64,000 bases of DNA, from the NCBI GenBank assembly GCA_003225175.1, contig QIBA01000071.1, positions 1 through 64,000 on the forward strand. Direction: 5' to 3'. The position numbers and the translations under genes were made by a program. Below the pieces are notes generated by a model. That model did not search any database and was not told the DNA's origin. It saw only the letters and a program-made list of their open reading frames with translations. Below are positions 5,419 to 13,329 of the stretch, in pieces. Positions within the stretch are counted from its first letter, which is position 1. Each line of letters starts with the position of its first letter. Origin of the DNA: Acidobacteriota bacterium. Lineage in GTDB: Bacteria > Acidobacteriota > Terriglobia > Terriglobales > Acidobacteriaceae.

Positions 5419-6147
5419 ATGGTTCACACAGTAGTTGATGGAACGTTTCGGCAAACTAATTTGACCAACGAATCTTCCGAGTATCTGGCCAAGCGCGAGG
5501 AGCTTCGCCTTGCCGAAATCGAGCTCATGCGACAGCGCGAACGCGTCGCTGGGCTGCGCCGTAGTCTTCCTAAAGGTGCTCCTATTAAGGACTATCAATT
5601 TGAAGAGGGTCCACGTGACCTCAACGCTGGTGATGCGCCTGGGAGCACTGTCCGCCTCAGCGAACTCTTCACCCAGCGCAATCGCTCGCTCGTCATCTAT
5701 CACTTCATGTTCGGAAAAAGGCAGACTAAGGCTTGCCCTATGTGCACCGCCTGGCTTGACGGTGCGAATGGTGTCGCCCATCATCTCGCTCAGAATCTTG
5801 ACTTCGCTGTTGTCGCGGCCGCCGATCTGCCGACTCTGCGCGCTCACGCTCGCGAGCGGGGCTGGGACAAGTTGCGTCTCCTCAGCGCCGGCAACAACAC
5901 TTTCAAATACGACTTCGGCAGCGAAGACCGCGAAGGCGGTCAGGATTCAACCGTTTCCGTTTTCACGCGCGACGCCGACGGCACCCTGCGTCACTTTTAC
6001 ACAGCGCATCCTTGGATGGCGCCGGACATTCGGGAGCGTGGCATCGATCTGCTCACTCCTATTTGGCACTTCATGGACCTCACCCCACAAGGCCGGGGCA
6101 CTTGGTACGCCAGCCTTGCTTACGGTACCAAAGTCCAGGCTGCCTAG
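5419..6147 (+). CDS. DUF899 thioredoxin-like protein
   Basis: A 242-residue cytoplasmic protein without signal peptide. It has the features of the DUF899 family: a helical N-terminus, then a thioredoxin-like core with YHFMFG and ACPMCTAWLDG (a CxxC near residues 112-115), FAVVAAADLPTLRAHA, and a C-terminal segment with HFYTAHPWMAPDIRERG and IWHFMDLTPQGRG. The family is annotated only as thioredoxin-like; substrates are unknown. The gene is monocistronic as far as can be seen. No regulatory site was recognised besides the preceding intergenic region. Confidence 0.85.
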   Translation: MVHTVVDGTFRQTNLTNESSEYLAKREELRLAEIELMRQRERVAGLRRSLPKGAPIKDYQFEEGPRDLNAGDAPGSTVRLSELFTQRNRSLVIYHFMFGKRQTKACPMCTAWLDGANGVAHHLAQNLDFAVVAAADLPTLRAHARERGWDKLRLLSAGNNTFKYDFGSEDREGGQDSTVSVFTRDADGTLRHFYTAHPWMAPDIRERGIDLLTPIWHFMDLTPQGRGTWYASLAYGTKVQAA

Positions 6148-7174: not shown

Positions 7175-8455
7175 CTACGGAGCAGCCAGCGCTAGTTTGA
7201 TCCTCTTCACATTGTTCTCCCGCTGGCTCTGACTGGGGATCTGCTGGGCTACGTCCAGGGCCTGCTCCAACGCGCGATGAGCTTCTGCCGATTGGCCTTT
7301 TCGCTTCAGCGCGTCGGCTTTGGTTTGCAGCAGCCAGGAGCGACCGAGGGCTCCCGGGTTGCGAGACAAGCCACGATCGCAGGCGACAATGGCTGCGTCG
7401 TAGTGTTTGGCTGCTTTTTCCATCTGCGCTACGCGCAGTGACGCGTTGTAATTGTGCGGCATGGCGAGCTCGGATGTTCGCAGCGAGGGGAGCACGCGTT
7501 CGGGATCGCCGTTTATCTGGATGGCTTCGACGCGGGCGATGTCCACGGCCGAGCGCTCCTCGTCATCCACCGGCTTAATAGCATCGAGTTCGGCCAGCCA
7601 TTTGTCCTCCAAGCTTGCCGCCAGCGGTTCCTCATTCCGTGAAATAGCGAAGTACATGAGCGTGCGGTAAAGCTCGTTGCGCTCATCGCGTACCGTTTCG
7701 GGAGAGGAGAGAGCTTGTTTTGCCAGAGGCACCAGTCTATCCGAAGCCGCACTACGCCAGGCTGCGGCTGTGTCACCCTGGACCAAGCACCACATGCCCG
7801 CAGCAACAATGCTGGCAAAGGTATTGTCATGCGTCATGAGCGAGGCTTCCCGGGCGGCAGTTTCTGCGCACTGCTGATGCTGCTCATGCAATTGCAGCGC
7901 GGTGACGAGCGAATACTGGGCCACTGGGCGAGGCGGCCAGTCCGGCGGCGCGAGGCGCAGCGCTTCCTGATAAGCGGCGACAGCTTCCGGCGACTTGGTG
8001 CTGAGAAGCTCGTCGGCCCGTTGCAGGGCGGCGTCGGCCGACGACTGCGGATTTCGTGCGAGGCTCACTCCCCGGTCCAGGAACGCTCTGAGCTCCGTCT
8101 CGGACATAGCTCCCGGTTGATCGGACAGGACCTTGCCGTCGGCATTGATCACATAAAAGGTTGGAGTCGCACTGGCCTCAAAATGGGAAAAGAAATCCTG
8201 GTTCTCCGGCTTGTCGAAGTTCAATTCCAGCCAGACAAACTGTCCGGCGTACCTGCTGAGATCGGCATGCGCGAGCATGGTCCTCATCAGGCGGCAGCTC
8301 GATCACCACGGAGCCCAGCACTCGACGAAGATCGGCTGCTTGCGTTGCTTTGCTTGCGCGAGCGCTTGTTGATAATTGTCCTGGATGAACGGGAGCTCTG
8401 CGGCAAGCACTGGCGCAAAGCCGATAACGATCAGCAAAGCAAGAATCTTTTTCAT
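7175..8455 (-). CDS. Secreted thioredoxin-TPR protein with in-frame TGA at the active site; candidate selenoprotein
   Basis: Read through the TGA at 8303-8305, this is one 426-residue protein. Residues 1-19 are a signal peptide (MKKILALLIVIGFAPVLAA). The thioredoxin domain (about 20-145) contains the active-site context FVECWAPW-[TGA]-SSCRLMRTML, so TGA (residue 51) stands where the first Cys of WCxxC belongs and Cys54 is intact. A cis-Pro follows in ASATPTFYV. Residues about 150-426 are helical repeats resembling TPRs. The frame is open on both sides with no other defect, and the five codons after the TGA belong to the conserved motif. This fits a selenocysteine UxxC oxidoreductase; a recent nonsense mutation or sequencing error cannot be excluded. 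No selA, selB, selC or selD is in the window. Translation of only 8303-8455 would give a 50-residue stub. Confidence 0.7.
8266..8301 (-). promoter_or_regulatory. Possible bacterial SECIS-like stem-loop after the in-frame TGA
   Basis: Numbering bases downstream of the TGA, 2-6 (CGAGC) can pair with 27-31 (GCUCG), and 12-14 (CCU) with 19-21 (AGG), leaving a GAUG apical loop whose first base is G. A separate 5-bp hairpin CAUGC/GCAUG with loop UCGC lies at 24-37. The first structure has the G-in-loop placement expected of bacterial SECIS elements but an internal loop of 5 x 5 and a rather short distance to the TGA (14 bases). Read by eye; not folded. Confidence 0.3.
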
Positions 8456-11499: not shown

Positions 11500-13329
11500 G
11501 TGAGAAATTCAAGCTCTTTCCTGCGCGGACTCGCCTTTCTTCTTGTTCTGTATCCTTCGTTTTTGTTCTCCCAGGCACCCGTTAGCGACGACACCTTTTC
11601 GTCTGCCGATCGCAAAGCAAACTATGGCGATAAAGATTACCTCGCGGTGCAGAGTCCTGCCTCGACTGCATACATCAGGTTCGATCTTTCCCGCTTGCCG
11701 CAAGGAATAACCGGAGAACAAATCAATAAGGCCACGGTTCGACTCTGGGTTTCCGCTGTCACTCAGCCTGGTTCACTTGATGTGGTCCGCGTGGCGAGCT
11801 CGTGGAATGAGGACACACTCCAAGGCAACAACTTGCCGTTACTTGGAATTACTGATGTACACAACGTGCAAGTGTCCAAGGAATCAAAGAACCATTATCT
11901 GGTCATCGATCTCACTGACTTAGTGCGGGACTGGGTGAACAATGCGCAAATGAATTACGGCATCGCCCTCGTTCCCGCAGGAAATATCTCTGCGGCGTTC
12001 GATAGCAAGGAGAACGGAACCAACAGTCACGACGCAGAATTGAACGTGGAGCTCCAAAAAATCGGACCGATGGGTCCACAAGGGCCTCAGGGTGTGCGCG
12101 GCTTGGTTGGAGCTGCCGGAGCCGCTGGACCTGCAGGGCCGCAAGGTGTACCGGGACCTGCCGGACCTGCGGGCGCAACCGGGTCTGCTGGACCTGCCGG
12201 AGCAGTTGGCCCCGCCGGAGCTCCTGGACCGAAAGGGGATACCGGTGCAACCGGAGCCCAGGGTCTCGCCGGACCGCAAGGACCCAAAGGTGATACCGGA
12301 GCAACCGGCGCACAAGGTCCAAAGGGGGATACCGGTGCAACCGGAGCCCAGGGACCTACCGGAGCGCAAGGACCCAAAGGTGATACCGGAGCAACTGGCG
12401 CACAAGGTCCGAAGGGTGACACCGGAGCAACCGGAGGCCAGGGGCCCGCCGGCGCTGCTGGTCCACAAGGCCCTGCTGGAGCAACCGGCGCGCAAGGTCT
12501 GAAGGGTGACACCGGAGCAACCGGAGGGCAGGGGCCCGCCGGCGCTGCTGGTCCACAAGGTCCGGCCGGAGCAACCGGCGCGCAGGGTCCGAAGGGTGAC
12601 ACAGGTGCGATGGGAGTCCAGGGACCCGCCGGTCCGCAAGGCCCGGTTACGTTGGCGTATCCAGACAATCCTCCAGCCAATCCGTCAGCTTACGATGACG
12701 AGTTCAATTCTGGGACTTCACTCAAATCCATCTGGGCTGGACCCAGCGCAGGAGTGGTTGATGGCGAGAATGCAGCGTCCTCTGTTGCCGGCTGGGACGT
12801 GAACAACACCATCCCAGATTGGTTGAATGTCCATCTCAGCAACGTGGGCGGAGCAAGCTTCGTCATTCAGCAAGCCACTGCCCCGAGCGCTCCGTTCTCC
12901 TGCACGGTGAAGTTCAGCATGGCAGGCTTCGCGAATTTTACTGGAGTGTATCTCTACTTCATGAACGGAACTTCTGGCGCAGCCACGGATGGAGTCCGGC
13001 CAGGAGTTGAATTCAATCCCTCTGCTTTGGCTTACCAGAGTGTTCAGGCGACATTTAGCACAAAAGATTCGGGCAACTGGAATTTCACTCGCAGCGGGCA
13101 TGTGATCCCACTTTGGGGAACCTTCTACATGCACGTGAAGTACGATGGAACAAGCTGGCGCATGTGGATATCGCCGAATGCGGTTTCATGGCTTGAAGTA
13201 ACGTCAGGCAACTTCGTGAAAGCCTTCACGGTTCGTGCTGTTGACGTCTCGATCAAGCTGAACGGCGCAAGCACTGATTCGCGCTTCGGCGTAGATTGGA
13301 TCCGCTTCAACTGGCTCACGCTTCCGTAA
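11500..13329 (+). CDS. Secreted collagen-like protein with DNRLRE and C-terminal sandwich domain
   Basis: A 609-residue protein starting at GTG, with a signal peptide (about 1-25, ending FLFSQA). Residues about 28-185 look like a DNRLRE/TGFb-propeptide-like domain of surface proteins ([40 protein letters not shown]). Residues about 189-382 are an uninterrupted Gly-X-Y collagen-like tract of roughly 64 triplets with units such as [12 protein letters not shown] repeated, visible also as direct DNA repeats. Residues about 395-609 form a beta-rich domain (DEFNSGTSL... [15 protein letters not shown]) resembling DUF1349/concanavalin-type sandwiches. The layout predicts an extended trimeric surface or extracellular filament protein. 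GAGAGG before the GTG supports the start. Repeat number may vary between strains. Confidence 0.85.

Follow-up and report, generated by a model that had tools for sequence, protein, structure and literature searches.

Several of the 119 prokaryotic selenoprotein families and subfamilies in a 2026 catalogue are thioredoxin-fold proteins, as far as the accessible text of that catalogue goes (PMC13188914). Its Table 1 includes Sec-containing Trx (PF00085, UxxC), a thioredoxin domain with Sec at the first position of UxxC, the arrangement also found in the protein described here. A 2006 survey counts, in Table 3 of its accessible text, two 'thioredoxin' selenoproteins in Anaeromyxobacter dehalogenans (PMC1794560). 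The coupling of a thioredoxin domain to a TPR holdase domain is known from CnoX, a protein of 284 aa with SxxC in E. coli and CxxC in Caulobacter, the partner of which is the cytoplasmic GroEL/ES in the accessible part of the source (PMC8129009). The words TPR and tetratricopeptide do not occur in the accessible text of the 2026 catalogue (PMC13188914) or in that of a 2022 review, a word search of PMC5029168 gave no match, and we found no description of a thioredoxin-TPR selenoprotein in the open-licence literature. A member of the family described below may have been included in the 2006 'thioredoxin' count, the TPR arm not being noted there.

The gene lies on the minus strand at positions 7175–8455 of the window, the whole 64,000-nucleotide stretch of DNA that was analysed. 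The minus-strand frame running from 8455 to 7175 translates as MKKILALLIVIGFAPVLAAELPFIQ...FVECWAPW, a stop, then SSCRLM..., and the single internal stop is the TGA at 8303–8305. The frame continues for 375 sense codons to the terminal stop at 7175–7177, giving 426 residues if the TGA is included as residue 51, an extent supported by both translation and homologues. The TGA occupies the first position of a UxxC motif (WAPW-U-S-S-C), at which the aligned codon in homologues is TGA or TGC/TGT. A preliminary description of this DNA had reported the in-frame TGA with its flanking residues, the 426-residue frame left open for 375 codons beyond it and its location at the first redox position of a WCxxC-type thioredoxin site; translation reproduced each of these points, and the Cys of homologues aligns at the same position. 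It had also anticipated that plain ORF calling would yield a 370-residue protein, and the longest ORF obtained without recoding is indeed 370 aa, from an ATG at 8287, entirely downstream of the active site.

The existence of this 370-aa ORF with an ATG of its own would be expected if translation of the locus gave a short leader peptide, terminated at the TGA, and, as a separate second product, a 370-residue protein initiated at 8287. We consider this extremely improbable and rejected the internal start, which falls within the thioredoxin fold and past the active site. Furthermore, the Cys-containing relatives are one continuous protein and the codons preceding the TGA are constrained. Over the 24 codons 5' of the TGA in 12 close sequences, the pairwise differences at the first, second and third codon positions were 0.19, 0.21 and 0.49, a comparative pattern that shows protein constraint on this upstream stretch. 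A changed genetic code was likewise rejected as the cause of the in-frame TGA, because TGA also terminates 16 of the 41 stop-to-stop frames in the 64-kb window that are 250 codons or longer, some of which are non-genic.

The conservation of the TGA was examined in a near set of 150 genomes, comprising the window's own genome and its relatives. Some match was present in 104 of the 150, in the great majority of cases confined to the thioredoxin part. Eight full-length matches (37–100% identity, own gene included) each contained exactly one in-frame stop, a TGA, and in all eight it fell on the same aligned codon, which together with the constraint on the preceding codons argues that the site is not a chance occurrence. 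When GTDB genomes were scanned, 55 pattern matches yielded 15 confirmed loci, of which 12 carry TGA at the site and 3 carry TGT/TGC; several of the 12 belong to species already in the 150-genome set. In a 396-genome sample of the window's phylum, 23 genomes matched at E <= 1e-15, and removal of four matches to the thioredoxin part only left 19 family-bearing genomes, own included, with TGA in 16 and TGC in 3. Two species of the same genus differ at the site, one (G242) having TGA and the other (G201) TGC. For the codon check, L085, L086, L088 and L093 were set aside as thioredoxin part only and L087 because no alignment of it covered the site; the window's own gene is L066, and L089–L092 are extra pieces of genomes already counted.

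Two further phyla gave the same alternation. Matches occurred in 134 of the 195 genomes searched from the phylum to which the Myxococcales locus L061 belongs, and among the matches listed the site codon was TGA in at least 24 places and Cys in at least 39 genes. After removal of repeats and of genes with identical segments behind the site, which were dropped before counts were made, 57 genes of this second phylum remained (one running off its contig), and the site TGA was the sole stop found within 30 codons upstream and as far as the gene end, 370–405 codons on. Up to four family matches occur per genome in this phylum, and one genome carries two family copies in tandem (L150). The phylum to which the Eisenbacteria locus L063 belongs gave matches in 21 of 47 genomes; 19 family loci were read, with the thioredoxin-only match L182 excluded, giving 13 TGA and 6 Cys. 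In the family genes checked across the three phyla, the site codon was always TGA, TGC or TGT. On a quick tree covering 89 rows, for which the site was masked and L059, L082 and L150b were omitted, the Sec and Cys labels change 8 times; well-supported branches force at least 7 of these changes, and one change separates two species of the same genus, suggesting that Sec and Cys have been interchanged at least seven times in the thioredoxin-TPR family. Cys homologues aligned at the TGA, which the preliminary description had named as support for Sec, were thus found in three phyla.

These data bear directly on the possibility that an ordinary Cys thioredoxin-TPR gene shows the TGA through a nonsense mutation or a sequencing error, so that the locus would be a pseudogene or an artefact. 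The family does include many Cys forms, TGA is one base away from TGC and TGT, and one third-phylum TGA locus (L181) is apparently split between frames downstream of the site. The chance of this explanation is nevertheless minimal, since it is contradicted by the conservation of the TGA across species, which makes sequencing error implausible: each full-length match in the near set carries this one TGA, as do dozens of genes from three phyla, and the 57 second-phylum genes have no other stop near the site or before the gene end. A selected RNA structure behind the TGA, described next, weighs against it as well.

A SECIS-like hairpin is predicted within the coding sequence at 8251–8292 (minus strand), starting 10 nt after the TGA, with an apical UCGC loop at 8271–8274, 28 nt from the TGA. 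Consecutive 60-nt segments of each gene were folded and compared with shuffled controls that keep the protein and draw their codons from the same gene. In a first set of 30 Sec genes, mainly from Acidobacteriota (the truncated L065 and genes identical over the segment behind the site were excluded), the first segment had a mean z of −2.14, with 22 of 30 below −1.5, against means between −0.66 and +0.52 for the other segments and −0.48 for the first segment of 5 Cys homologues. A second set, excluding L097, L099, L102 and L121 as repeats of other loci, gave a first-segment mean z of −1.45 for 20 Sec genes (7/20 below −1.5; other segments −0.56 to +0.62) and −0.06 for 37 Cys genes. Moreover, the first segment lay below the mean of the gene's other segments in 30/30 and 20/20 Sec genes, compared with 4/5 (p 0.06) and 17/37 Cys genes, in the first and second sets respectively. 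The Sec versus Cys contrast for the first segment reached p values of about 6e-06 and 5e-06, which are optimistic because related sequences are not independent. For the window gene alone the signal is mild (z −1.14, 21 of 200 shuffles being as low). At the level of the family, these comparisons point to selection on RNA structure directly after the TGA in Sec genes, and to a weak or absent structure in Cys genes.

The preliminary description had suggested a bSECIS search behind the TGA, and the outcome was divided: a hairpin is selected there across the family, but the window gene itself, in which neither of the first two loop positions is a G, does not fit the published bSECIS model (taken here as given in the accessible text of PMC13188914, section 5). 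The loop position lay within the published range of 16–37 nt in all 50 Sec genes, and 7 of the 50 had a fold within 3 kcal/mol of the best that agrees with the full model; the failures were mostly due to the same missing G. A subset of selenoprotein genes falls outside the model according to that section (PMC13188914). No single pairing pattern fitted all sequences, the RNAalifold consensus being weak, empty or inconsistent, and we make no claim of covariation because the pairing register shifts between sequences. The results suggest that SelB of these phyla accepts hairpins outside the published SECIS rule.

The genome of the window carries the complete set of Sec genes that the preliminary description had proposed to look for: tRNA-Sec (selC, 64.4 bits, above the cut-off, anticodon TCA), SelB (377 bits), SelA (554 bits) and SelD (371 bits). 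The selD gene (L094) itself contains one in-frame TGA, between AAG and ASK at the expected Sec site, which fits UxxK, the site listed for Sec-containing SelD in the accessible text of the catalogue (PMC13188914). Among 36 genomes checked, all family-bearing apart from G004, selC was found in 31 and selA in 34, with at least one of the two in all 36. In the 396-genome sample selA was present in 18/19 family-bearing genomes versus 234/377 others (Fisher p 0.0018); in the 150-genome sample the link between selC and the family was not significant (7/8 versus 93/142, p 0.19). One genome (G002, 88% complete) has the family gene and selA and gave no selC match. The same-genus genome G004, likewise 88% complete, has the Sec machinery and no full-length homologue. 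Six Cys-form genomes among the 36 keep selA (6/6) and selC (5/6), and the Cys form is therefore not simply a consequence of loss of the machinery.

TGA is the leakiest stop codon, and on this general ground the long form could be made at a low level by read-through with an ordinary tRNA (for instance that for Trp) and contain no selenium. This is very improbable in view of the site itself, at which relatives have Cys, the redox nucleophile, and neither Trp nor Arg occurs in any family gene checked; in addition, selA, selB, selC and selD are all present, and the downstream RNA structure tracks TGA and not Cys. The proposal of the preliminary description that the TGA encodes selenocysteine is strongly supported by the alternation of TGA and Cys, the four sel genes and the RNA structure across the family, and from this comparative evidence we put the probability that the in-frame TGA is read as Sec at roughly 97%.

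The predicted protein begins with a signal-peptide-like segment (MKKILALLIVIGFAPVLAA, 8399–8455, minus strand), recognised from the sequence and its hydrophobic stretch. A hydrophobic N-terminal stretch is present in 28 of 34 first-set genes and in only 24 of 57 second-set genes. When read as a pattern, a lipobox-like motif occurs in 27/37 Cys and 4/20 Sec genes of the second set, and in 4/30 Sec and 0/5 Cys genes of the first. Judged by its N-terminus, the window protein is probably exported. Residues 25–127 (8075–8383, minus strand) constitute a thioredoxin domain, identified by Pfam PF00085 (47.6 bits, cut-off 23.5), by the structure model and by conservation, and containing U51, C54 and P98, the last of which we take to be the cis-Pro position of the thioredoxin fold. 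W50, C54 and P98 are invariant in 89/89 family rows.

Residues 139–426 (7178–8041, minus strand) are predicted, from Pfam, the model and structure comparison, to form an all-helical TPR superhelix. The Pfam TPR matches of the window protein itself are sub-threshold; among 13 family members scanned, Thioredoxin_7 was matched by all 13 and TPR_12 by 9 at E <= 0.001. The structure model (pLDDT 91, pTM 0.87, from 13 sequences) consists of a thioredoxin fold and, C-terminal to it, a helical superhelix, with low confidence at residues 1–3 and 12–18. In structure comparisons the thioredoxin part resembled 2lst (Z 15.7, rmsd 2.5, 125 residues) and the TPR part LGN 5a6c (Z 16.0, rmsd 5.9, 271 residues). 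The fusion of TPR-like repeats to thioredoxin, as the preliminary description had it, is thus supported by the family-wide Pfam matches and by the model. Two further cysteines are conserved in the superhelix, Cys196 (7868–7870, minus strand; 86/89 family rows) and its possible partner Cys223 (7787–7789, minus strand; 88/89). Both are present in 86 of 89 rows, in Sec and Cys forms alike; Cys196 alone is missing in two rows, and the single row without Cys223 lacks both. From their location in consecutive helices, Cys196 and Cys223 may form a disulfide.

We propose that SelB and tRNA-Sec decode the UGA as Sec, aided by the hairpin directly 3' of it, a step for which the support is comparative, and that the product would then be exported from the cytoplasm, as its N-terminus suggests. 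The selenolate at U51 would attack client disulfides or oxidised cysteines, C54 would resolve the intermediate, and Sec in place of Cys would raise the reactivity of the attacking residue. Most likely the product would act outside the cytoplasm on thiols and disulfides, as a reductase or an isomerase. The surface of its TPR superhelix might hold client proteins, and it would then be an analogue, in the periplasm, of the CnoX chaperedoxins. Sec incorporation together with a redox role is highly likely, and exported thiol-disulfide chemistry appears probable; that the TPR part holds clients in the manner of a chaperedoxin is a tentative proposal by analogy, which we place only just short of even odds.

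An exported location would permit chemistry in either direction, and the protein could act as an oxidase, that is, a disulfide donor, instead of a reductase or isomerase. This is unlikely, since the active-site setting, WAPWUxxC with P98, is of the thioredoxin type and selenol chemistry favours reduction.

TPR domains often bind a single partner, and the selenoprotein could serve one dedicated partner, such as a haem, copper or selenium-handling step, with the TPR arm as the docking site. The surroundings of the gene bear on this reading. In its favour, 7 loci of one Acidobacteriota subclade, of which 5 are distinct, have a MocR-type regulator gene (GntR plus aminotransferase domain; for example L052:2440–3903) immediately upstream and in divergent orientation. 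The start of the regulator gene, taken from the longest ORF, lies 80–257 nt before the TGA; beside the window gene the regulator is absent. No widely shared neighbour gene emerged around 21 and then 37 loci, and outside the MocR subclade none is widely common, which argues against a dedicated partner. One upstream neighbour is common to L071, L074 and L078, which are of one family, one downstream neighbour is common to L071 and L078, and a few others are each common to two loci. Moreover, the several family matches in some genomes would suit several clients as well as one. Docking to one partner is a real possibility, to which we give somewhat less than an even chance.

A promoter and terminator scan found nothing. 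Elsewhere in the window, a DUF899 protein is encoded at 5419–6147 on the plus strand, about 1 kb from the selenoprotein gene, and an ORF at 11500–13329 (plus strand) combines a signal-like N-terminus with a long collagen-like GxxGPxG repeat. A search of a plasmid collection with the selenoprotein returned one weak match (29% over 40% of the protein), on a Prevotella replicon.

More broadly, and with less confidence than an even bet would carry, we suggest that these genes represent a widespread, unrecognised family of exported 'seleno-chaperedoxins', distributed over Acidobacteriota, Myxococcota and Eisenbacteria, in which Sec and Cys are repeatedly swapped and most SECIS hairpins lack an apical guanosine. 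If so, annotation and SECIS-based searches would overlook the family, because most of its hairpins are without the apical G of the usual bacterial model. The family adds to the known selenoproteins a probably exported thioredoxin-plus-TPR architecture, present in three phyla and cut short by plain ORF callers. Its members also constitute a natural set of Sec/Cys swaps, down to species of one genus, with which to ask why such a redox protein needs selenium.

How, then, does the window protein compare with what has been described? No NCBIfam model passes its own cut-off for it, and among the 13 families listed for the 13 members none names a thioredoxin-TPR architecture. The thioredoxin equivalog TIGR01068, a single domain of about 100 residues, scores 41 bits against a cut-off of 96.8 on this protein of 426 residues. 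Trx7/PDZ selenoprotein (NF041199) and TsoB (NF045694) are, like the window protein, multi-domain selenoproteins with a thioredoxin-like domain; its scores against them, 23.5 bits (cut-off 300) and 24.8 bits (cut-off 805), are well below threshold, and the Pfam scan matched no PDZ or rhodanese domain. Thioredoxin_7, matched by 13/13 family members, links them to the DsbD C-terminal domain and similar proteins, whereas the DsbD model itself gives the window protein 27.9 bits against a cut-off of 330. Where DsbD has a membrane part, the window protein has the TPR arm.

CnoX/YbbN (E. coli b0492; PDB 3QOU) shares the order of domains, thioredoxin then TPR, and E. coli YbbN/CnoX gave the best Foldseek E-value (6.1e-06), with low whole-chain TM-scores of 0.22 and 0.32; it was not among the 50 matches listed in a second structure comparison. 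By BLASTP the window protein aligns with CnoX at E 7e-08; the alignment has 125 columns with 28% identity and is essentially confined to the thioredoxin part. E. coli CnoX matches TPR_20 (PF14561, 103.5 bits) and TPR_19, whereas TPR_20 was found in 0/13 members of the window family. Because TPR_20 is unmatched, the alignment is limited to about the thioredoxin part and, judging by the N-terminus, the cellular location seems different, we do not class the window protein as CnoX. Relative to Sec-containing Trx, with which it shares the UxxC thioredoxin domain, the window protein adds a signal-peptide-like or lipobox-like N-terminus, a TPR superhelix of about 290 residues and an extra conserved Cys pair.
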